Shown one piece after another: positions 1,266-12,423 of a stretch of 64,000 bases of DNA. The position numbers and the translations under genes are program-made. The notes under the pieces were generated by a model. That model searched no databases, was not told the origin of the DNA, and worked only from the letters and a program-made list of their open reading frames with translations. The DNA comes from Prosthecobacter fusiformis (GTDB taxonomy: Bacteria > Verrucomicrobiota > Verrucomicrobiia > Verrucomicrobiales > Verrucomicrobiaceae): the NCBI RefSeq assembly GCF_004364345.1, contig NZ_SOCA01000014.1, forward strand, positions 1-64,000. The letters are read 5' to 3'. The number at the start of each line of letters is the position of its first letter. The stretch's first letter is position 1.

Positions 1266-4103
1266 ATGCGTTACGTTCTTAGCCTAGTTTCAGTTCTTGC
1301 CTTCACCCTCCAGCTCACCGGGCAGGCCCCGCCGCCTGCTGCCCCGGCTGCACCCGCTGGCGCATTGAACATCCAGCAGGAAACGGAAGCTCTCATGGCT
1401 GAGGCTCTGCGCTTTTTCCAAGAGGCCAAATACCCCGAGGCGCTCAAAAAGATCGAGCAGGTAAAGACCAACCTCAATAACAAGCCCTTCGCTCAAGTCC
1501 TCTTCGTGGAAGGCGCTTCCTACTTCAATCTGGAAGAATACGACAAGGCCATTGCCGTCCTGGAGGACTACATCAAAAACTTCGGCGATGGCGAATACAT
1601 CAGCGCTGTCAAAATGGCCCTTGGCCGCAGCTACATCAATAAAGGCGATGCCGACAAAGGCATCTCCGTCTTAAAAGAAGTCGTCTCCCAGTCCCCCGAC
1701 ATGAAGTCTGAGGCAGGCCTGTTCGTGGCTGAAGCACTCAAAAAGCAGGATAAGGTGGATGAAGCCCTCTCCGTGCTGAAATCCGTCCTTGAAGGCGGCA
1801 TCCGCAGTTCGGAGGCCATCCAGGCCGCCATGATGGCCGCAGACCTTCACGTCGCCAAAGGTGAGCTGGATGAGGCCGGTGCCCTCATGGAAAAAGTGAA
1901 AGGTTTCGCCACCGGCGGTGACAACGTCGCCCAGATGAACAACATCTACCTCCGCCTCGGGGATCAGATGCTGGAGAAAAAAAGCTTCCGCGAGGCCCTC
2001 GGTGCCTACCAGTTCGTCCGCCGCAAGAATGAGATCACCCGCATGCAGAAGGACGTGATCGCCAAGATCGAGCAGAGCCTCAAAACCCCAGGCCGTGGCC
2101 CCATCAAAGGCACCAAGGAAGAGCTCGAGGAAAAGCTCAAATCCAATAACACCCTCCTGGCGGAAATTGAGCAGCGCAGCGACTACGATGCCTCCCTTTA
2201 TTACCGCCTGGGCCGTTGTTATTTCGAAATGGGCCGCTTCTGGGAGGCCCTCCTCGCTTTCGATGTCATCGTCAATGACTTCAAAGAATTCCCCCAGCGT
2301 GACCGCTGCGTCTTTGGCATGATCATCGCCAATGCCCAGCTCAAGCGCGTCAAGTCCGCTCGTGAGCTCTGTGAGCGTTACATCAATGATTTCCCGGATG
2401 GGGCGGATCTCGGCACCGTTTCGGAAATGTTCGGCATGCTCGCCTATGAAAATGGCAAGCTCCAGGAGGCTGCCGATGCCTTCAATAAAGCCGAAGGATT
2501 CCCTAAATCCGACCGGGAACGCCTGCGCTTCCTTCGCGGGAACGTGCTCTTTGAAATGCAGCGTTTCGACGACGCCCGCACCACCTTTGAACTCCTCATC
2601 AATGAGTTCCCTCAGTCCGCCTATAAAGATGATGCCCTCTACCGCATCGCCCTCATCTACTTCTACCAGAACGATTCCGTCAATACCACGAAGGCGCTGA
2701 AGAACTACATGAAGGAAAACCCGAAAGGGCAGTACGTCGTGGATGCACGCTACCGCCTAGCCTTCATTAAATTCCAGGCCCGCGATGTGGACAATGCCAT
2801 GCTGGACCTCCAGGCCATCATCAAAGATGCGCCGAATGATCCCAACATCGGCCAGGTGCACAGTTTGTTAGGGGATGCCTATAACCAAAAAGGCGAATAT
2901 GAAAAAGCCCTGGAAAACTTCGCCCTCGGCGTGACCAAGGCTAAGTCTGACGATGTCCTCAGTTATGCCATGGACCAGGCCACCGACCTCTATGCCGGGA
3001 CCGGCAAGTGGAAAGAGCTGGGAGACATGTGGCAGAAATACATGAATACCCACAAGGACAACGAAGAGCAGGAGCTCAAAGCTGTCCTATGGATCTCCCG
3101 CGCCCGGGTGAAGGAAAACAAACTGGACGAAGCCAAAAAGCTTCTCGCTGACGCCACCCGCCCAAAAATTTCCAATCCTTCCAATCAGCAGGTGGAAGGT
3201 CTCATTCAGCAGCTCGTCAGCCTTGTCGCTCCTAAACGCCGCCGTCCAGTGACCACCGAAGGCGCACCGGCACCGGAGCCTGAGCTCACCCATGAGCAGG
3301 TAGCCACTCAGCTTGAGGAGTTGCTCACCCCGCCTCAGGCCGCCCAGAATGGCACCTCCCAGATGCGCATCCTCTTTGCCAAGGCCTGGCTCGCCAAGGT
3401 CATGCGTGAACCCGTGAAAGCGGAAAAACTCTTCGCGGTCATCATTGACGTCGCCAAGCCGGAAGACCTCAGCGCCATGCTCCTCGCCACCGTTGGCGAC
3501 AATGCCCGCACCAAAGGCGACCTGGATAAAGCCGCCGCTTGCTACAACCGCCTCAACGAATTCTTCAAGGAAACCGAATACGCGGATGGTGCCGCAGTCG
3601 GCTTGGCAGAAATCGCCTACTCAAAGGGAGAATACGACAAGGCTCTGGAGCTCTTCACTTCAGCCATTGAAGAATACTCCGCCAGCTCCCGTCTCCTGGA
3701 TGCCACACTGGGCAAGGCCAAGACCCTCTTCCAGCTCAAGAAGTATGACGAGGCCAAGGCGCTTTACGTGCAGATCCTCAATACCAAGGAGTGGCGCGGT
3801 GAAGCCCATGCCACCTCACTGTTCATGCAGGGGGAGATCGAATTCGCCAACCAGAAATGGGGAGAAGCCATCCCCTTCTATCAGCGTGTCTTCATCGCCC
3901 ATCAAAAGTGGAAGTCCATCATGGCCCAGTCTTACCTCCAGTGCGCCCGTGCATTCCTCAAGCGCAACGGACCTGCTGAGCCGCCTAACAAATACCCGGA
4001 CCGGGAAAACGCCAAGCTCCTGCTCATTGAAATGGTCAAGCGCACAGACCTCAAAGACCTGCCTGAAATGAAGCAGGCTGAGCTGGAACTCTCCAAGCTG
4101 TAA
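1266..4103 (+). CDS. Exported tetratricopeptide-repeat protein, first gene of the Exb operon
   Basis: A 945-residue protein that begins with a signal peptide (MRYVLSLVSVLAFTLQLTG, then Q-A-P-P-P) and a Pro/Ala linker, followed almost entirely by TPR-type helical repeats (for example A-L-x-x-Y-x-L-G-R-C-Y-F-E-M-G-R-F-W-E-A). It is expected in the periplasm or attached to the envelope as a protein-protein scaffold. The ATG at 1266 is preferred because the signal peptide begins there; an ATG at 1242 and a GTG at 1224 are in frame and would add a non-hydrophobic extension. No Shine-Dalgarno is visible. It is followed after 27 bases by a second exported protein and then by ExbB/ExbD genes. In Exb/Tol-like systems periplasmic TPR proteins (YbgF/CpoB) are common partners, though this one is much larger. 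The specific function is unknown. Confidence 0.85.
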   Translation: MRYVLSLVSVLAFTLQLTGQAPPPAAPAAPAGALNIQQETEALMAEALRFFQEAKYPEALKKIEQVKTNLNNKPFAQVLFVEGASYFNLEEYDKAIAVLEDYIKNFGDGEYISAVKMALGRSYINKGDADKGISVLKEVVSQSPDMKSEAGLFVAEALKKQDKVDEALSVLKSVLEGGIRSSEAIQAAMMAADLHVAKGELDEAGALMEKVKGFATGGDNVAQMNNIYLRLGDQMLEKKSFREALGAYQFVRRKNEITRMQKDVIAKIEQSLKTPGRGPIKGTKEELEEKLKSNNTLLAEIEQRSDYDASLYYRLGRCYFEMGRFWEALLAFDVIVNDFKEFPQRDRCVFGMIIANAQLKRVKSARELCERYINDFPDGADLGTVSEMFGMLAYENGKLQEAADAFNKAEGFPKSDRERLRFLRGNVLFEMQRFDDARTTFELLINEFPQSAYKDDALYRIALIYFYQNDSVNTTKALKNYMKENPKGQYVVDARYRLAFIKFQARDVDNAMLDLQAIIKDAPNDPNIGQVHSLLGDAYNQKGEYEKALENFALGVTKAKSDDVLSYAMDQATDLYAGTGKWKELGDMWQKYMNTHKDNEEQELKAVLWISRARVKENKLDEAKKLLADATRPKISNPSNQQVEGLIQQLVSLVAPKRRRPVTTEGAPAPEPELTHEQVATQLEELLTPPQAAQNGTSQMRILFAKAWLAKVMREPVKAEKLFAVIIDVAKPEDLSAMLLATVGDNARTKGDLDKAAACYNRLNEFFKETEYADGAAVGLAEIAYSKGEYDKALELFTSAIEEYSASSRLLDATLGKAKTLFQLKKYDEAKALYVQILNTKEWRGEAHATSLFMQGEIEFANQKWGEAIPFYQRVFIAHQKWKSIMAQSYLQCARAFLKRNGPAEPPNKYPDRENAKLLLIEMVKRTDLKDLPEMKQAELELSKL

Positions 4104-4130
4104 TTCCCCACGACTTAACTCCACGTTCTC

Positions 4131-5000
4131 ATGTTGCGTTACACCTTTTGCATCCTGGCCTCCTTCCTCTTTTGCGGGGCCGCTTTTGGCCAGGCCATCG
4201 TTCTCAAAGACGGCACCCGCGTTCCGGATACGGAATTCACCATGGATGGGGACAAAATTGTCCGCACCCTCAAGATCGCCGGCAGTTCCGCCACCACGGT
4301 GCTCCCTTGGCAGAACGTCGCTTACCTCGACTGGCCTGAACCCCCGGAACTCCTGGAAGCCAAGTCCCTCATGGCCCAGGCCAAGGCGGACGAAGCACTC
4401 GCCATGCTCAAGAAGTCCCTCGATTTTTTCCAGAAGTTTGAAAAGATCGAAGGCAACTGGTACCAGCAGGTCTTCTTTGCGTATGTCGAAACACTCAGCC
4501 AGGCTGGCAAGTTTGAAGACACCATCAAACTTCTCCCGTTGCTGAGAACCCTGCCTCTCACCGCTGCCCAGAAGATGACGCTTCGCATCATCCAGTTGGA
4601 CATCGACCGCCAGACCTCCACGGAATACACCTCCATCATGGCTGAGGCTGAAGGCATCCTGGCTGATACGGACGACTCCGCTGTCGGCGCTTCCATCTGG
4701 ATCATCATCGCTGACATTCATGCCAAAAAGAAGGAGTGGGAAAAAGCCCTCATGGCCTACCTGCGCATTCCCGTTTTCTACGGTACTCAGATGCAACGTG
4801 TGCCGGATGCCGAACTCAAGGCCGGTCAAATGCTTGTGAAAATGAAACGTTATGAAGACGCCCAGGCCATCTTCAGCCGCATTGCAGATTCCTACAAAGG
4901 CTCCGCCATCGCCGATACCGCAGCCAAAGAAAAGGCCGCCATCAATGGCATGAAAAACGAGCCTGAAGAGGAACCTGAAGCCCCTGCTCAAAAAAGCTGA
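4131..5000 (+). CDS. Exported helical-repeat protein of the Exb operon
   Basis: 289 residues with a clear signal peptide (MLRYTFCILASFLFCGAAFG, then QA). A short beta-rich segment (residues ~22-65, IVLKDGTRVPDTEF and VLPWQNVAYLDW) resembles the small ligand- or partner-binding modules found before TPRs. The rest is alpha-helical with TPR-like spacing (AKADEALAMLKKSL, KKEWEKALMAYLRIP, KRYEDAQAIFSRIADSYKGS), ending in a Glu/Pro-rich tail. It is probably periplasmic. It sits 27 bases after the large TPR protein and 57 bases before exbB, so it is likely co-transcribed. No specific family is recognised; a scaffold or adaptor for the Exb complex is inference. Confidence 0.8.
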   Translation: MLRYTFCILASFLFCGAAFGQAIVLKDGTRVPDTEFTMDGDKIVRTLKIAGSSATTVLPWQNVAYLDWPEPPELLEAKSLMAQAKADEALAMLKKSLDFFQKFEKIEGNWYQQVFFAYVETLSQAGKFEDTIKLLPLLRTLPLTAAQKMTLRIIQLDIDRQTSTEYTSIMAEAEGILADTDDSAVGASIWIIIADIHAKKKEWEKALMAYLRIPVFYGTQMQRVPDAELKAGQMLVKMKRYEDAQAIFSRIADSYKGSAIADTAAKEKAAINGMKNEPEEEPEAPAQKS

Positions 5001-5057
5001 TCTGTACTCATCCTTCTTCTTTTTCCAAAACAAATCTCTACACCCGACCCGCTACCC

Positions 5058-5936
5058 ATGCACACCAGCACCCCTCCCTCCATGATCCAGAAAATCGTCC
5101 GTGGTTTCGTCCGCCTCAGCGCCTGCGCGCTCCTCGTCGGCGGGACTTTCCTTATGACTTCGGGCCTTCAGGCTCAGGACGCCGCACCTGCCGCTGAAGC
5201 TTCTGCTGCTCCTGTCGTCCACCAGCATACGCTCATGGACCGTTTTCATGAAGGCGGCTGGATCATGTATCCCCTCCTGCTTTGCTCCATCGCCCTCGTT
5301 TGGCTCACGGTGGATCTCTGGATGCGCACCAGCATCAAGAGCATGGCTCCTCCTTCCCAGGTGACTCAGGTGCAGGATCTCTTCCGCGCTGGCGATTACG
5401 TTGGTGCTTATCAGTTCTGCCGCAGCAACAACTCCTACTTCGCGGACATCACCCGCGTCGGCCTCAGCTTCGTCGGTGAAGGCCAGGAAGCTGTGGAAGC
5501 AGCTCTCTTTTCTGAGCTGAACAAAACCAATTCCATCGTTCAGACCCGCATCAACTATCTCTCCGTGCTCGGCGTCTGCACCCCCATGATCGGTCTTGTC
5601 GGCACCGTGACCGGGATGATGAGCGCTTTCGCCACCCTGGGCACCAGCGGTGTGGGTGATCCTTCCAAGCTCTCCGCGGCTATCGGTGAGGTGCTTGTGG
5701 CTACTGCTTCCGGTCTCGCCGTCGCCGTGCCTGCGTTCATGATCTTCTACTTCCTGCGTAACCGTCTCCAGGTCTCCATGCACGGCATGCAGGAAATCGT
5801 TTCCTCCCTCTTCCGCAAGATGCCTTACGAGCACCTCAAGGACGCTCAAGTGGGTGAAGAAGAATTCTATGCTGCCGTGCCTAACTGGGTCACTGGCAAT
5901 GGTGAAGTCCAGGCTGTCGCCGTTGCTGTCGGCTGA
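5058..5936 (+). CDS. exbB: MotA/TolQ/ExbB proton-channel family protein
   Basis: 292 residues. An N-terminal hydrophobic segment (~14-38, ending L-Q-A-Q) looks like a signal peptide, as in long ExbB variants. Then come a membrane helix (~66-86, IMYPLLLCSIALVWLTVDLW), a cytoplasmic domain, and two helices carrying the family hallmark G-L-V-G-T-V-T-G-M-M and the LAVAVPAFMIFYFLRN segment. ExbB pentamers hold the ExbD dimer and form the proton path that powers TonB-like transducers in the inner membrane. An in-frame ATG at 5082 is an alternative start. Two ExbD genes and a TonB-like protein follow, so the motor's subunits are encoded together. Confidence 0.93.
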   Translation: MHTSTPPSMIQKIVRGFVRLSACALLVGGTFLMTSGLQAQDAAPAAEASAAPVVHQHTLMDRFHEGGWIMYPLLLCSIALVWLTVDLWMRTSIKSMAPPSQVTQVQDLFRAGDYVGAYQFCRSNNSYFADITRVGLSFVGEGQEAVEAALFSELNKTNSIVQTRINYLSVLGVCTPMIGLVGTVTGMMSAFATLGTSGVGDPSKLSAAIGEVLVATASGLAVAVPAFMIFYFLRNRLQVSMHGMQEIVSSLFRKMPYEHLKDAQVGEEEFYAAVPNWVTGNGEVQAVAVAVG

Positions 5937-5993
5937 TCGCCATTCCGGCAGGTGCCGGTCCCAGTGTTATAAACCTTTTAATCTGATACCCAT

Positions 5994-6431
5994 ATGGCAG
6001 GAGGAGGCGGAAGTACCGAAAGCGGAGAACCGGAGTTTCAAATTGCTCCGATGATTGATGTGCTGTTGGTGCTGCTCATTTTCTTTATGAGCATCACCTC
6101 GGCGCAGGTGTTGGAGATTGATAAGGACATCAAGCTGCCGGTCGCAGCGGACGCCAAGAAGAAGGATAAGAACGCCATGTTCGAGACCGCCATCAACGTC
6201 CGTTGGATCGCGGCCAAGCAGCAGTCCATCATCAAGCTCGACAGTCAGGAATTGGATAACGAAGCAATCGTCAACACCCTGACCCAGTTCAAAAATGCCA
6301 ACGCCGCCCATCGCGTCATCATTCGTGGTGACCGCGACGTGCCGGCTGTAGAAATTCAGAAAGTCATGGCCCTCATTGCCCAGTCAGGCATTGATGACAT
6401 CTCTTTCTCAACCCTCAATCAAGACGGCTGA
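5994..6431 (+). CDS. exbD: ExbD/TolR-family protein, first copy
   Basis: 145 residues with the ExbD plan: a short cytoplasmic N-terminus, one membrane helix (~18-38) and a periplasmic domain. The helix carries the family motif P-M-I-D-V-L-L-V-L-L-I-F-F, with Asp22 as the proton-carrying residue needed for energy coupling. The periplasmic part has the usual alternation and a late V-I-I-R-G-D-R-D-V-P strand-turn. Three bases separate its stop from the second exbD. Two unlike ExbD copies next to one ExbB suggest a heterodimer or two alternative motors. Confidence 0.93.
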   Translation: MAGGGGSTESGEPEFQIAPMIDVLLVLLIFFMSITSAQVLEIDKDIKLPVAADAKKKDKNAMFETAINVRWIAAKQQSIIKLDSQELDNEAIVNTLTQFKNANAAHRVIIRGDRDVPAVEIQKVMALIAQSGIDDISFSTLNQDG

Positions 6432-6434
6432 CCC

Positions 6435-6902
6435 ATGGCTCATAACAAAAAACATCGCCACATTGAGGCGGAGCAAGTCAACATGGGCTTTCAGATCGCA
6501 CCCATGATTGACGTCGTCTTCGTCATCATGCTCTTCTTCATGGTCATGGCCGGTGCGGTGAAGGTAGAACGTGAACTGAAGACCCAGCTCCCAGGACTTG
6601 GCACTCCCGCGCTAAGTGATGACAATACCCCGCCTGATGAAATCCTCGTCACGGTGGAAGAAACCGGCATCGTCACTTTGAATGAGGAGGAATTCGATTC
6701 CCCCACAGACAAAGTGCTGCCGAATTTCACCAATACCCTCATGCGTCTCAAGCAGGAGGCTGATCATCGCAACGCCAAGGTCATGGTCACCATCCAGGCC
6801 GAAGAACAGGCACGCTATGAGCGCGTGATCGATGTGCTTAATTCCATGGCCAAGGCCAAAATCGCCAACGTCACATTCACGGTCGGTGGGGATGAATTCT
6901 AG
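6435..6902 (+). CDS. exbD: ExbD/TolR-family protein, second copy
   Basis: 155 residues, clearly divergent from the preceding copy but with the same plan: the N-terminal His/Lys-rich tail, a single membrane helix with P-M-I-D-V-V-F-V-I-M-L-F-F (Asp26 being the proton-relay residue) and a periplasmic domain (~50-155). Its loop after the helix is longer (ERELKTQLPGLG, then a Pro/Asp-rich stretch). The 3-base gap to the first exbD argues for translational coupling and co-assembly with ExbB. The downstream transducer-like gene begins 81 bases later. Confidence 0.92.
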   Translation: MAHNKKHRHIEAEQVNMGFQIAPMIDVVFVIMLFFMVMAGAVKVERELKTQLPGLGTPALSDDNTPPDEILVTVEETGIVTLNEEEFDSPTDKVLPNFTNTLMRLKQEADHRNAKVMVTIQAEEQARYERVIDVLNSMAKAKIANVTFTVGGDEF

Positions 6903-6983
6903 AATCTTCAGCAGGGGCCATTAGCCCTCCTCATCCAAGCATCGTCAGTTGCTACAGGCTTCAGCGCCTACCTTTCGCCTTCT

Positions 6984-8885
6984 ATGTCTGCCACGCCTCC
7001 CCCGCCTAGTCCCGGTGGCCCACCTTCGCCATCGGATCTTAGTGCCACCCAGCCCCTGGGTCCACCACCCGGGGCCACCAACCCTGGCAACCTGGGCTAC
7101 CCGGTGCAGGGGAATTTGGGTTATCCAGTGCAGCCGAATCTGGGCTATCCCGTCCAGCCCGGCATGGTGCCTCCTACGCAGCCGTTGGGTTATCCCACTC
7201 CGTCCGCAGCTTCAGGCCCGGTGCCCGTCGCCGCCGTGGAGGAAGAGGAAGAAGAATTCATGGCCGTGGAAGCCGTGGGCGGAGAAGTATTCCATCCGCC
7301 AGCGCTCAATCATTTTGAACCGGCAAGACCCTCCAATCCTCTGATCCAGGCTTGGCGCAAGGTCGGCGGCGGTTCCCTGGCGCTGAGCATCGCCATCCAC
7401 GTCGGCATCCTGGTTGTCGGCGGGGCCATCGTGGTCAGCACGCAGATGATCCAGAAGCAGGTGGACTTCTTACCCGGTGGCGGCACTCAGCAAGGGGCGG
7501 AAGCCTCTGCCGAGATGCAGCACAAGGTACAGCAGAAGAAGCGCACCACGCTGAACAAATCCATGCCGATGAAGAAGATCGTCAGCACCAGCCAGACTTC
7601 GGCGGTGACACTGCCGGACGCTCCGCCGGACATCCTGGATGTGCCGGATGTAGGCGCGATGCTGGGCGGCGGCAGCCTCAGTGGTGCAGGATTCGGCAAA
7701 GCCGGGGCCGGGGGTGGTTTCGGCACGGGGATGGGCATGGGCAGCATGCAGGGATTCGTCAGCCTGCCGCCTTCCATGAAACAGCGTTGCTCCACCTCGG
7801 AGCGCCTGGAAAAATTACGTCAAAACGGCGGCAATGCCGAATGTGAGCGTGCGGTATCCGCCTCCCTGGAATGGCTGAAGGGCCAGCAGAATGAAGATGG
7901 CTCCTGGGGGCAGGGCGGGGGTAAAAGGAATAAAGCGGCCATGACTGGCCTGGCTCTGCTCTGCTATCTGGGCCGCTGCGAAACGCCAGACTCTCCTTTC
8001 TATGGGGACAACGTCATGCGTGCCATCATGTATCTGGTGGAGCTTTCCAAAAAGAACGAGCACGGTGCCATCACCGAAGACTTCAAAGGCAACTCCGGTG
8101 CCTATGAGCACGGCATCGCCACCTATGCGCTGGGGGAGATGTATACCCTGGCCCGTCTCGGCAGCAAACAGCTCCCCGGTATGCGTGAAGCCTTCGAAAA
8201 AGGTGTCCAGCTCATCATCAAGACCCAGAATAAAGCCGATGCCAAAAACGCCGAAGGCTCCTGGGACTACTATACCAAGAACATCGCTGAGGGTAAGCCC
8301 ACCTCTTCTCGCGAAGACCTTTCTGTCGCTGGCTGGCAATACCAGGCCCTGAAAGCCGCCAAGTTCACCGGTCTCAAAATCCCGGGTCTCCAGAGCGCCA
8401 TCGACAAGACTTGTGACTATATCGAGCGTACCCAGACCAAGGACGGCGGTTTTGGCAAAGCCAACCGAGATGCTCATTACAATCAATGGAGCCTCACCGG
8501 AGTCGGTTCACTGGGCCTGCAAACCCTCGGTAAAGGCCGCACCGCCTCCATCAAGAAAGGCATCGGATTCCTGCGCAGTTTCATCACCGCCGAGCCGCTG
8601 GACTGGAATAAGAACTGCAATCTCTACTGCTGGTATTATTACACCCAGACCTTCTTCCAAGCAGGGGGTGAAGACTGGAAGTTCTACAACGAGCAGTTCC
8701 TCCCCCAGATCCTCGCCGCCCAGCAGCCGGATGGCAGCTTCAAAAAAGGCCGCCCTAACTGGCCTTCCGGTGACGCCCCGGATCCCGTCTATCGTCAGGT
8801 TCTTTGCACCCTTCAGCTTGAAGTCTATTATCGTTATCTGAAGGTCGGCGACCGTGACGAAGAAAGCTTCTTTGACCGCCAGTAA
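6984..8885 (+). CDS. TonB-like membrane anchor fused to prenyltransferase/squalene-oxidase-fold domain
   Basis: 633 residues. The N-terminus is Pro/Gly-rich with three 8-residue repeats of NLGYPVQ (36-58) and an acidic run (86-91). A single membrane helix follows (~130-151); its S135-x3-H139 spacing is the SxxxH pattern by which TonB and TolA contact ExbB/ExbD. A Gly/Met-rich linker (~225-255) leads to an alpha/alpha-barrel domain (~285-615) of the prenyltransferase/squalene-oxidase repeat type, with QW-like turns such as QNEDGSWG, TKDGGFG and QPDGSFKKG. No TonB C-terminal domain is present. The barrel probably faces the periplasm, coupled to the ExbBD motor encoded upstream. The typical DxDD of squalene-hopene cyclase is not seen, so a binding or protease-inhibitor-like role is as likely as catalysis. 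The substrate is unknown. Confidence 0.85.
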   Translation: MSATPPPPSPGGPPSPSDLSATQPLGPPPGATNPGNLGYPVQGNLGYPVQPNLGYPVQPGMVPPTQPLGYPTPSAASGPVPVAAVEEEEEEFMAVEAVGGEVFHPPALNHFEPARPSNPLIQAWRKVGGGSLALSIAIHVGILVVGGAIVVSTQMIQKQVDFLPGGGTQQGAEASAEMQHKVQQKKRTTLNKSMPMKKIVSTSQTSAVTLPDAPPDILDVPDVGAMLGGGSLSGAGFGKAGAGGGFGTGMGMGSMQGFVSLPPSMKQRCSTSERLEKLRQNGGNAECERAVSASLEWLKGQQNEDGSWGQGGGKRNKAAMTGLALLCYLGRCETPDSPFYGDNVMRAIMYLVELSKKNEHGAITEDFKGNSGAYEHGIATYALGEMYTLARLGSKQLPGMREAFEKGVQLIIKTQNKADAKNAEGSWDYYTKNIAEGKPTSSREDLSVAGWQYQALKAAKFTGLKIPGLQSAIDKTCDYIERTQTKDGGFGKANRDAHYNQWSLTGVGSLGLQTLGKGRTASIKKGIGFLRSFITAEPLDWNKNCNLYCWYYYTQTFFQAGGEDWKFYNEQFLPQILAAQQPDGSFKKGRPNWPSGDAPDPVYRQVLCTLQLEVYYRYLKVGDRDEESFFDRQ

Positions 8886-8895
8886 CCGAAGTTGA

Positions 8896-11800
8896 TCAAC
8901 GCCGCCGGCGGCTGAAGGCCCATACACCGCCGAGCATCAGCAGCAGCATCCGGGAGGGTTCCGGGGTGATGTAGATGATGCCGTGGCTGACAAAAAGGGA
9001 AGTATCCCAGGTCAGTCCCAGGTCATCAATGTCCGGCAGTTCCAGGATGCCCGGTGCATCTGCGTCTGTCACTCCGGCGATGCCCAGACCAGCAAAGTCC
9101 AGGAGGTCAAAGACCATGCCGGACTGATAACTGATCCCGTCCGGCACCACCTCTACCCGTGTGCCGGTGCTGAATGTCAGCGTGCCTGAGACTTCCAATG
9201 AATCATGCTGAGTGCCATTTGGGTCCAGATCGCCCAGGCCGATGATGAAGGCATTGCGAGCAGCCTGATCCAGGCTCACATCCACAAAGGCCAGCGAACC
9301 TTTGATTTGCACTTGAAGCAGCGCATCACTCAAAAAGGTGGCGGATGAACCTACGGTCAGTGTGCCGATGGCCGTGCCCCGGGTGCCTCCAGGGATCACC
9401 TTGCCAGCCACCGTGATCGCCCGGCCAATGGTGCCATCGCCACCCAGGGTACCACTGGCATTCACCTGGAAAGCCGCGCTGGGAGTGAAGGTCTGCCCCT
9501 GCACATAAAGAGCACCATCCACCTGGGTCAGCGATATGATCTGCGTCAGCCTGCCGCCATTGATGAGTTCCACCGTTGCCGCCGTTCCGATCCGGGTCAA
9601 TCCACTGGTATTGCCAAAGGGTTCCAGGTCGATGGTGGCCAGTCCTGTAGCCGTGGCATTGGCGATCCAGGTGCCCCCTGTCAGAGTGCCTGCACCATCG
9701 CTTTGTACAAAGTTCAGGTCGTCAAAATCGGTGGTCAGGGAGGTGGTGACGCGGAAGTTTCCGCCCAGCACTTCCACGGTGCCTTGGTTATCAAAAGTGC
9801 CTGCACCCACGTCCCCGTCAGAACTGTAGAACTGGGCCGGGTCACTGCTGCTGGTCGTGGCATTCTTGCGGATGATACCAGTGGCACTGTTGGTGAAAGT
9901 ATAGCCTTCACGCATCTCGAAGTCATTGATATCCCCAAACACATACAGGCCGTTATTGATGAACTCACCGCCGGAGGTCAAGCCGACCAAGTTGTCCGAG
10001 CCCACTGAAATGAGGTTGAAGGTGCCGTTGTTGATGAACGTCCCAACGCCGGAGATGGTCCGGTTGGCGGTGCCGTTGACGTTGAAGGTGCCGTCGTTAA
10101 TGACGCTCACATCAGCCCCGATGGACCAGGTGGCACTGGTGTTCCAGTTGACGATGCCGGTGCTTGCATTGCGCCATTCCCCGCTGCCATTGATTGTCCG
10201 TGTACCGGGATTTTCGAAGTTGAAGGTGCCTTCATTGCGCAGGCTTGTATTGGCATTGATGGTCAATGTTGAACCACTGCTCCAGTTGAAAGTTCCGGTG
10301 CTGCTGATCAGAAGCTGGCCTTCGTTCGCGAGGGTGCGCGTGCCCGTGCCGGTGATTTCGAAGATGCCGTCATTGCGGTAAGTGACGGTCGGGGCAATGC
10401 CCAGGGTGCCGCCTGTCCATTGTACGGTCCCCGTGCTGTCATTGATGAAAGATCCGGCTCCCGTATAGCTGGCTCCGGCTGCGATGTTCCAGGTGCCCTG
10501 GTTCCTAAAGATGCTGTTATCTGACAAGGTCAGGACCCCGTTGCCCTGATTGAATACACCCCCGCTGGCATTGACGAATTCACCCCCGCCAGTCAGGGTT
10601 TTTGTGGAGGAGGAGGCCGTGCCGAAGATGCCGAGGTTGGTCAGGGTATAACCTTGAGTATTGATGTTGTGCTGTGACCAGACGATGCCGTTGCCGCTGA
10701 TATCGAAGGAGAGTCCGCCCAGACCGACAGTGAGTTCACTGACGACCGAAGCATTGGCACTGTCCGTGATGCGCATGGAGGAGCTGGAGCTACCTTTGAT
10801 CACGCCGGACCAGACACCTGCGATATCCAGGGTGCCCCCATTCGCCGTCCAGGTGGCCCCGGCCACACTGGTGCCGCCGGATGCCAGGCGCAACGTGCCC
10901 AGGGTACTTTGGATCTCACTGCCATCGGCGGCGATAAAACCAGCGGTGCCATAAACAAAAGAGGTGTCCCCTGTATTGGAGGTCTTTTTGAGGATGCCGT
11001 TGTTTTCAAATGTACCGGAACTTGAAAACAAGATGTCCCCGCCAGCCTGGAAGTCATAGACCCCGTTGTTTTCAAAGGTTACCGTACCGCTGATGCTGAG
11101 GTTGTCAGCGCTGCCGCTGAAGACATGGTTAAAGGTGTTGTTGTTGATGAAGCGTCCGCTGCCTGTCAGAGTTTTGTTGGCATTGGTAATGAATTCGGCG
11201 ATGCCGTTGTTGATGAGCTGGCTGCCGTTGAGAGTCAAGGTGCCACGGATCAGTGAAAAAAGCCCGGTCGCAGTATTGGTTAGGGTACCGCTTCCGCCCA
11301 GGGTGAGGGTGCCTGCGGAATCCAGGACAAGAGTCCCATCATTCTGAATGGCGGTGCTGGTGTTTAGGGTGCCCGTTTTGAGGGTAAAGGTGCCGCCTGC
11401 CGCATTGATGAGCGTGCCCGTACCTGCCAGGGTCACCGCAGTGCCTGCGGAGGCCGTTTCCAGCGTCATGGTTCCGCGGTTGGTGAAGTTGGCATCCGTC
11501 AGGGTCAAAGTCCCGGATTGCAGGAGGAAGGTACCGTCAGCACCGTTTTCCACACTGCCCGTGCCCTGAACCACTGCGCCGGTGCCGGTGAGGCGGAGGA
11601 TGCCGTCATTGCGCAGGGTATTGCCATTGCCATCCAGGATCCCGGTGGTCCACAGCAGGCCATCACCAGTCACATCCAGAATGGTGATGGCAGCGAGGGC
11701 GGAAAAAATGCCACCCGTGGCTGCGGATGGGTTTTCATTGGTCAGTGCGACCGCTCCGGTACCAGTCATGCTGGAGACGCCGCGAAGAAGGGTCCAGCCG

Positions 11801-12423
11801 CCGGTGAATGACAGGGTGGCCCCATTGGCGACGGTAAAGTCTCCGCCATTGGAGGTGGCGGCACCAGCGGTCGTGCGGGCACCGGAGATATTGAGGTGCC
11901 CCGCATCCACCTGGATGTCCCCATTGTTCACAAAAGCTCCGCCCTGACTCGGAGAGGAAGGGTAGATGTAGGCCGGGTCATTGGAGCTTCCGTCACTGCC
12001 TTGGGTTTTATGGATCAGGCCATTGTTGGTGAAGGACGATCCAAGGCCTGAAAGGCGAAAATCGGAGCCGCAATCGATCTGATAGGTGCCATCATTGATC
12101 AGGCTGGCCGCACCGCTGACGGTGATGTTGTCATTGGTACTGGTGGTATCGATGAGCAGGCGTCCGCCCGAATCAATCTTCAGCGTGCCGCTGCCTGCAA
12201 GGATCCGGCCCCCTGTTGAGCTGGAGTTGACGGTGGAATTGAAAGTGACGGTAGATCCCGTGCCGATGTTGACGATGATTCCAGTATTGATGGTGACGTC
12301 GCCACCAGTCCAGGTGTCTCCGTTAGCCAGAGTCGTGTTGGCGCTGTAAGTGCCGGCGATATCCGCCGCAGATGCGTGGATGGCAAGGGCGAGGCATGTA
12401 GCTGCTATGAAAAAACGGCGCAT
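8896..12423 (-). CDS. PEP-CTERM surface protein with autotransporter-like beta-strand repeats
   Basis: 1175 residues: a signal peptide (MRRFFIAATCLALAIHASA), then about 1000 residues of low-complexity Gly/Thr/Asn/Ser repeats resembling autotransporter-associated beta-strand repeats (recurring N-D-G-T-F, G-T-L-T-x-T-A-x-G, F-I-N-N-G-T-F), predicted as a right-handed beta-helix. The C-terminus is a PEP-CTERM signal: P-E-P at 1154-1156, a hydrophobic helix and a final R-R-R-R. Such proteins are processed by exosortase and deposited on the surface or in exopolysaccharide. There is no outer-membrane barrel, so it is not a classical autotransporter. It converges on the Exb operon with only 10 bases between stops. 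No exosortase gene lies in this window. Confidence 0.88.
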   Translation of the reverse strand: MRRFFIAATCLALAIHASAADIAGTYSANTTLANGDTWTGGDVTINTGIIVNIGTGSTVTFNSTVNSSSTGGRILAGSGTLKIDSGGRLLIDTTSTNDNITVSGAASLINDGTYQIDCGSDFRLSGLGSSFTNNGLIHKTQGSDGSSNDPAYIYPSSPSQGGAFVNNGDIQVDAGHLNISGARTTAGAATSNGGDFTVANGATLSFTGGWTLLRGVSSMTGTGAVALTNENPSAATGGIFSALAAITILDVTGDGLLWTTGILDGNGNTLRNDGILRLTGTGAVVQGTGSVENGADGTFLLQSGTLTLTDANFTNRGTMTLETASAGTAVTLAGTGTLINAAGGTFTLKTGTLNTSTAIQNDGTLVLDSAGTLTLGGSGTLTNTATGLFSLIRGTLTLNGSQLINNGIAEFITNANKTLTGSGRFINNNTFNHVFSGSADNLSISGTVTFENNGVYDFQAGGDILFSSSGTFENNGILKKTSNTGDTSFVYGTAGFIAADGSEIQSTLGTLRLASGGTSVAGATWTANGGTLDIAGVWSGVIKGSSSSSMRITDSANASVVSELTVGLGGLSFDISGNGIVWSQHNINTQGYTLTNLGIFGTASSSTKTLTGGGEFVNASGGVFNQGNGVLTLSDNSIFRNQGTWNIAAGASYTGAGSFINDSTGTVQWTGGTLGIAPTVTYRNDGIFEITGTGTRTLANEGQLLISSTGTFNWSSGSTLTINANTSLRNEGTFNFENPGTRTINGSGEWRNASTGIVNWNTSATWSIGADVSVINDGTFNVNGTANRTISGVGTFINNGTFNLISVGSDNLVGLTSGGEFINNGLYVFGDINDFEMREGYTFTNSATGIIRKNATTSSSDPAQFYSSDGDVGAGTFDNQGTVEVLGGNFRVTTSLTTDFDDLNFVQSDGAGTLTGGTWIANATATGLATIDLEPFGNTSGLTRIGTAATVELINGGRLTQIISLTQVDGALYVQGQTFTPSAAFQVNASGTLGGDGTIGRAITVAGKVIPGGTRGTAIGTLTVGSSATFLSDALLQVQIKGSLAFVDVSLDQAARNAFIIGLGDLDPNGTQHDSLEVSGTLTFSTGTRVEVVPDGISYQSGMVFDLLDFAGLGIAGVTDADAPGILELPDIDDLGLTWDTSLFVSHGIIYITPEPSRMLLLMLGGVWAFSRRRR

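Follow-up and report, generated by a model that had tools for sequence, protein, structure and literature searches.

We examined a 64,000-nucleotide window of Prosthecobacter fusiformis (NCBI RefSeq contig NZ_SOCA01000014.1, positions 1 to 64,000) and found close to its start six genes on one strand that are likely to encode a proton motor and the TonB/TolA-like transducer it energizes, a protein headed by an α/α toroid; comparison with relatives in Verrucomicrobiota suggests that the operon is a platform with exchangeable heads. The features of the locus are as follows (window positions; TPR, tetratricopeptide repeat; TM, transmembrane):

1266..4103, + strand: gene 1, TPR1, 945 aa from ATG 1266, TPR_6 at 121 bits, signal-peptide-like start
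4131..5000, + strand: gene 2, TPR2, 289 aa, signal-peptide-like start, sub-threshold TPR in Pfam
5058..5936, + strand: gene 3, ExbB/TolQ-type motor subunit, MotA_ExbB at 83.7 bits, N-terminal signal-like extension
5994..6431, + strand: gene 4, ExbD-1 (TolR-type), ExbD at 71.0 bits, Asp22 codon from 6057
6435..6902, + strand: gene 5, ExbD-2 (TolR-type), ExbD at 68.2 bits, Asp26 codon from 6510
6984..8885, + strand: gene 6, putative toroid-headed transducer, 633 aa, SQHop_cyclase_C at 26.2 bits
7380..7436, + strand: TM anchor, gene 6 residues 133-151, by hydropathy and alignment, with S135-x-x-x-H139
7461..7475, + strand: VDFLP segment, gene 6 residues 160-164, at the D-box (motor box) position, outside the strict published pattern
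7770..8843, + strand: predicted α/α toroid head, gene 6 about residues 263-620, from the AlphaFold model and its match to PDB 2sqc

The six genes share a strand, are separated by short gaps (27, 57, 57, 3 and 81 bp, in order) and may form a single operon; the gene order goes beyond chance because it recurs across the phylum. A first-pass annotation of the window, whose interpretation as a whole is partly supported by our analysis, had drawn six open reading frames (ORFs) with small gaps around an ExbB/double-ExbD proton motor, and we recover all six ORFs as well as the motor. Gene 1 has an alternative start at GTG 1224 instead of ATG 1266. Pfam cut-offs are 22.9 for MotA_ExbB, 25.4 for ExbD and 26.1 for SQHop_cyclase_C, which makes the gene 6 match a borderline one.

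The whole gene 6 protein is matched in 55 of 56 searched genomes of relatives, and its toroid in 193 of 387 genomes of the phylum at E ≤ 1e-10 (source genome included in both counts). Neighborhoods were taken from the source genome and near relatives, from 80 named loci (with Prosthecobacter and Brevifollis among the close relatives) and from 60 phylum loci; 191 toroid ORFs were reduced to 136 that are complete with at least 3 kb upstream, to 130 that are nonredundant and to 128 with a TM helix, a set that does not include the window protein itself. Defining as operonic a toroid whose upstream 4.5 kb hold ExbB and two or more ExbDs, we count 57 operonic copies, 3 with a partial set and 68 orphans. 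The order TPR-TPR-ExbB-ExbD-ExbD(-ExbD)-toroid is present in 46 of the 57 nonredundant operonic loci, so the result that would have refuted the first-pass reading, a head gene not conserved beside exbBD in relatives, did not appear; median gaps are 41 bp for ExbB-ExbD, 12 bp for ExbD-ExbD and 39 bp for ExbD-toroid (55 of the 57 loci). The phylum sample yields 33 operonic loci among 49 evaluable ones (11 of the 60 fetched were left unjudged), a fraction that is no random estimate, the 60 loci having been hand-picked from the best-scoring matches listed. The TPR genes follow the toroid in a rotated order in L066 and L125 (our locus handles), and partly in L149, where one ExbD is labeled. On a tree of the 128 toroids (quick method, midpoint root), operonic copies fall on both sides of the deepest split. 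Planctomycetota gave one plasmid match (26.7% identity) with no exbBD among the stretch's 6 annotated features, and no genome-scale test was made there.

ExbB and ExbD together make up a proton motor, and the window genes carry both families (PF01618 and PF02472) together with the channel residues: Asp22 in ExbD-1 and Asp26 in ExbD-2, and in ExbB T183 (GTVTG) and T216 (ATASG), which we take from TolQ motifs to be the two channel Thr positions. The channel Asp is kept in all 114 ExbDs (two per locus, 57 operonic loci), and 55 of 57 operonic ExbBs have Thr in both motif columns; the latter figure is from the alignment, as a strict string match to the second Thr motif recovers 23/57 only. TPR1 is presumably a periplasmic protein, given its signal-like start. 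TPR2, which had been described as a helical-repeat protein, does have TPR-like helices, but its AlphaFold model (mean predicted local distance difference test score 85) places a small β domain (strands 22-67) ahead of them; its fold search gave generic TPR matches alone, none at E ≤ 0.001.

Gene 6 consists of a Pro/Gly-rich tail (presumed to be cytosolic), one TM helix, a Gly-rich linker and the toroid. The AlphaFold model agrees: its tail and linker are of low confidence, a single long helix spans residues 129-155 between them, and the toroid is confident. A hydropathy scan locates the TM segment at residue 133. The anchor helix, GGGSLALSIAIHVGILVV, contains S135 and H139, spaced as are the Ser and His of TonB. 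TonB and TolA anchors engage their motors through an SHLS helix and a D-box; of the SHLS motif we scored Ser and His alone. Among operonic helices the His is present in 51/57, and the residue four before a His is Ser in 38 and Ala in 13, against a background of 22 His in 7,296 residues of ExbB/ExbD hydrophobic segments. Two Akkermansia-type rows (L046:13507 and L047) were counted with His, at the far helix end, and were scored as lacking it in the tree-pair test described below. It is through such a His in the TM anchor that TonB and TolA bind their motors (PMC12204202). The gene 6 anchor thus resembles a TonB/TolA-type motor-binding helix in its sequence. Pfam finds neither TonB_C nor TonB_2 in gene 6 at E ≤ 0.05, and the toroid stands in that place. 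The first-pass annotation is supported to this extent: the motor genes adjoin one for a transducer-like protein that has a TonB/TolA-type anchor and no TonB C-terminal domain, and two for TPR-type proteins.

The published D-box pattern, whose definition we took from PMC10907165, occurs behind the helix in 16 of 32 deeper-lineage operonic copies, compared with 2.3 ± 1.4 (maximum 7) in 500 shuffles, the pattern itself being published and the test region and letter classes having been chosen after viewing the sequences. Orphan toroids carry it in 2/68, with no excess over shuffles (2.6). In the window's own group, VDFxP-type letters occupy the D-box position in 19 of 25 copies; as the strict D-box is missing there, an ExbD-binding strand in the window protein is inferred from position. 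By analogy with TonB and TolA, the His of the anchor is expected to contact the ExbB ring at its edge, and the following strand should lie on the ExbD dimer (PMC12204202, PMC10907165). On this analogy the helix would not be expected to sit in the ExbD channel, as the first-pass annotation had it.

In the AlphaFold model, the head of gene 6 is an α6-α6 toroid (residues 271-620; ten-residue confidence means 64-97, mostly >80). Its closest solved structure is squalene-hopene cyclase 2sqc (Z 25.8, root-mean-square deviation 3.1, 293 residues aligned); other cyclases are tied with it, 2-epimerases and GH76 mannanases lie 1-3 Z below, and AprG is also among the fold relatives. The barrel of the first-pass annotation is thus an α/α toroid and not a β-barrel. 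Across 131 aligned toroids, E333, T334, Y374, E385, Y429, D445, S447, W451, Q454, Y548, Y551, Y552 and Q555 are 97-100% conserved, H376 is conserved in 89% and W427 in 85%, and helices taken as inner tend toward higher conservation than outer ones. These near-invariant polar and aromatic residues and the more conserved inner helices therefore suggest a conserved pocket for ligand or catalysis.

The same anchor carries other heads. An anchor-linker alignment search of the source genome (E < 0.001) retrieves four carriers: the window gene, a toroid orphan (C1:880 kb) and two vWA proteins (C6:99.9 kb and C5:59.1 kb); ExbB (PF01618) was not found near the orphan or the two vWA carriers. The vWA label of the C6 and C5 proteins, for which Pfam has no match, comes from a DxSxS-type motif seen by eye and from their mutual homology (a C6-built vWA profile); VWA models score above cut-off in the related anchor carriers L256 and L266. 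PA14 passes its cut-off on this anchor in L287, L208, L209, L257 and L258, and PA14-like heads below cut-off or silent occur in L248, L260, L263, L264, L146, L288 and L289; these heads align over the same region, sub-threshold ones included (L209 is outside the alignment). In the sixth slot itself, L285/L044 have a vWA-like head (sub-threshold VWA models) with a toroid gene close by on the other strand; L287 and L289 have a PA14-like head after the TPR and ExbB-ExbD-ExbD genes, and L263 has one after ExbB-ExbD-ExbD (of these three, L287 alone passes the PA14 cut-off); and L208 and L209 have a toroid in the slot, followed by a PA14-like protein. Head swapping is thus observed: vWA or PA14-like heads sit on the toroid-type anchor and can replace the toroid in slot six. 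No head gene is present in five probable Akkermansia ExbB-ExbD-ExbD sets: in 4/5 of these fetched loci a TPR1-type gene follows the motor, with a TPR2-labeled gene next in 3 of those 4; L279 has an unlabeled 343-aa gene with a start similar to those of the L280 and L283 genes, and the following genes of L281 are unlabeled. The toroid and PA14-like heads of two such genomes lie at other loci (L046, L047, L257, L258).

Two related proteins are unusual in their N-terminal parts: the PA14-like transducer L263:1510-3069 has a SAM domain ahead of its TM helix, and the anchor carrier L250 has a weak TPR match.

We propose that a dedicated 5:2-type proton motor (ExbB and two different ExbDs) would energize a TonB/TolA-like transducer: the N-terminal helix of the transducer would dock on ExbB through the conserved His, the segment just past the membrane would pair with the periplasmic domains of ExbD, and the Gly-rich linker would carry the toroid where TonB and TolA have their C-terminal domain. 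Cycles driven by the proton motive force (PMF) would pull on the head or let it go; the head is likely to bind a ligand or partner (in the toroid cavity and/or on the TPR scaffold) and so to do mechanical work in the periplasm, where TPR1 and TPR2 may scaffold or present clients. Our data show the order of the genes and their conservation, the anchor motif, the D-box-like strand of deeper lineages, the fold and the exchange of heads; in this scheme we infer the physical coupling, the stoichiometry, the transfer of force and the ligand. Several heads may share a single motor. The operon would be the platform and the head would define the job, because in relatives the anchor bears vWA or PA14-like heads, encoded either in the operon slot or by orphan genes.

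Several observations weigh against this proposal. Many toroid proteins are orphans (68/128), and a toroid copy 85% identical to that of the window lies in the same genome (C1:880 kb) at a locus with no ExbB. The His is absent from six of the 57 operonic anchors. It is less frequent in orphan toroids (49/68 vs. 51/57, Fisher p 0.024), but its association with the operon is not significant on independent tree pairs (median p 0.25), and because phylogenetic pairing fails we do not use it as proof that the His marks operonic copies. The window protein does not have the strict D-box, nor does any of the 25 copies of its group, and over all operonic copies the count is 16/57. Moreover, the strong polar and aromatic conservation of the toroid would equally suit an enzyme.

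The nearest described relatives of the system are vWA-headed transducers reported in 2025, which in PVC (Planctomycetes-Verrucomicrobia-Chlamydiae) bacteria often have TPR, tolQ and two tolR genes as neighbors and are of unknown function (PMC12204202). They share with gene 6 a His-bearing TM anchor, a linker and the TPR, tolQ and double tolR neighbors (PMC12204202), and the window anchor-linker is homologous to that of the two vWA proteins of the same genome; in contrast, the window has a toroid head and two TPR genes, and PA14-like heads are additionally found here (PMC12204202, compared by description and not by sequences). Pfam gives no VWA match in gene 6 at E ≤ 0.05. We thus read the toroid version as a variant of this recently published motor with interchangeable heads. 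The first-pass statement that no characterized system of this kind is known is weakened because these vWA-headed transducers have been described (PMC12204202), whereas a toroid or PA14 version itself is undescribed among the matches listed from open-licence PMC literature, mostly titles and abstract starts. The excerpts of a Verrucomicrobiota TonB/alginate paper (PMC13274419) and a stator survey (PMC12505986) have no bearing on the toroid. Fibrobacter FSU_2396-2403 (OmpA, TPR, TPR, one undescribed gene, ExbB, ExbD, ExbD, TonB family) also places two TPR genes near ExbB and two ExbDs, but its last gene is annotated as TonB family (PMC6851124, again compared by description and not by sequences).

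Compared with ExbBD-TonB and TolQR-TolA, the six-gene system has the same proton motor subunits, an SxxxH anchor and, in deeper homologues, a D-box-like strand, but it has no TonB/TolA C-terminal domain and has two different ExbDs; none of the six genes encodes a TonB-dependent receptor, TolB or Pal. Compared with squalene-hopene cyclase, the fold is common to both, but the window has a single toroid where cyclases have two, lacks DxDD and is anchored beside a motor.

Toroid folds are found in carbohydrate-active proteins, and PA14 folds occur in them as well. A tentative possibility, compatible with our proposal, is that the machine provides the energy for capturing or importing glycans, by TonB-like nutrient import or by "selfish" uptake of polysaccharides: in Fibrobacter the TPR proteins FSU_2397-2398 are more abundant on cellulose, as is the nearby ExbB-ExbD-ExbD-TonB cluster FSU_2400-2403 (PMC6851124), and glycan accumulation in the periplasm has been reported for Verrucomicrobiota (PMC13174399); however, no CAZyme or outer-membrane transporter family is matched among the six genes. 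Our best guess at the biological role is glycan or envelope-polymer handling, because of the proteins with which toroid and PA14 domains share their folds and because of the cellulose-induced Fibrobacter proteins (PMC6851124). The broader notion, a phylum-wide TPR-TPR-ExbB-ExbD-ExbD platform on which several non-homologous heads per genome (toroid, vWA, PA14-like) share one motor and capture and move glycans or envelope polymers, we regard as doubtful; such a platform might be the engine still missing from accounts of polysaccharide or mucin uptake in these bacteria.

It is unlikely that the toroid protein is a membrane-anchored enzyme acting on terpenoids or glycans, a bystander in the operon whose motor drives something else. 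The fold it has in common with cyclases, 2-epimerases, GH76 and AprG would fit such an enzyme, as would the conservation of Y374, E385, D445, S447, W451, Q454, Y551, Q555 and H376. However, DxDD, the catalytic motif of class II cyclases, is missing from the window toroid and present in just 3/130 toroids, and we reject terpene cyclase activity on this ground; an enzyme would also leave the TonB-type anchor and D-box-like strand unexplained, and vWA and PA14-like heads occupy the same anchor.

A second Tol-Pal of the lineage, acting as an envelope-stabilizing or division machine, is improbable. By NCBIfam the motor subunits are best matched as TolQ/TolR (scores far under equivalog cut-offs), and the best models for gene 1 are YbgF/CpoB and BamD, of which YbgF/CpoB passes its own cut-off; on the other hand, the source genome has a separate locus (L037) with ExbB/ExbD-type genes, a TonB_2 C-terminal domain, a PD40 propeller and an OmpA gene, and no TolB- or Pal-like protein is found among the six genes. 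As L037 carries Tol-Pal-like genes, we judged Tol-Pal identity unlikely. Because this locus exists, and a further separate locus encodes a TonB C-terminal protein, we argue that the six-gene system is neither the Tol-Pal nor the only Ton system of the cell.

The AglRQS motor, like that of the window, consists of one ExbB and two ExbDs. We nevertheless give very little weight to AglRQS-like surface movement or adhesion: a gliding role has been suggested for vWA heads (PMC12204202), but no gliding family scores above cut-off among the six genes, no genome-wide search for gliding genes having been made. A defense system (Zorya or other) was rejected, as PADLOC gave generic TPR models only at E ≤ 0.001.

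Around these loci we also observed the following. Behind the orphan toroid at C1:880 kb (L031:8462-13281) lie genes for a pyridine nucleotide-disulphide oxidoreductase and for an Alginate_exp outer-membrane protein. Another toroid protein of the source genome (L032:7832-9184, C3:317 kb), 51% identical to the window toroid, starts with a signal-like segment and has no TM anchor ahead of the toroid, and no ExbB is present at its locus. In a probable Akkermansia genome, L046:10091-15030 holds tandem toroids, one split into two overlapping frames by the ORF call, with no His at the usual anchor position. Directly downstream of the six-gene operon, several Akkermansiaceae-like loci have a second set of ExbB, ExbD and a large TPR protein of about 800 aa (L123, L124, L128, L136, L137, L143, L213; ExbB or ExbD unlabeled in L128 and L137), and the source genome has such an ExbB-ExbD-TPR set at a separate locus (C5:180009, L035). 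In the window, a convergent gene ends 10 bp past the last stop of the six-gene set (8896-12423, - strand) and encodes a 1175-aa repeat-rich protein with a PEP-CTERM-like tail by eye; positions 2-322 hold a fragment that by eye resembles the C-terminal part of an IS110-type transposase.

To our knowledge, PMF-driven 5:2 motors serve few jobs: Ton, Tol, flagella and gliding. A conserved operon with a constant motor and anchor and a changing head would establish force transducers as modular. If our proposal is true, the toroid fold, which is best known from enzymes, would perform mechanical or capture work, and the system would be a candidate for the movement of large molecules in the periplasm of Verrucomicrobiota.

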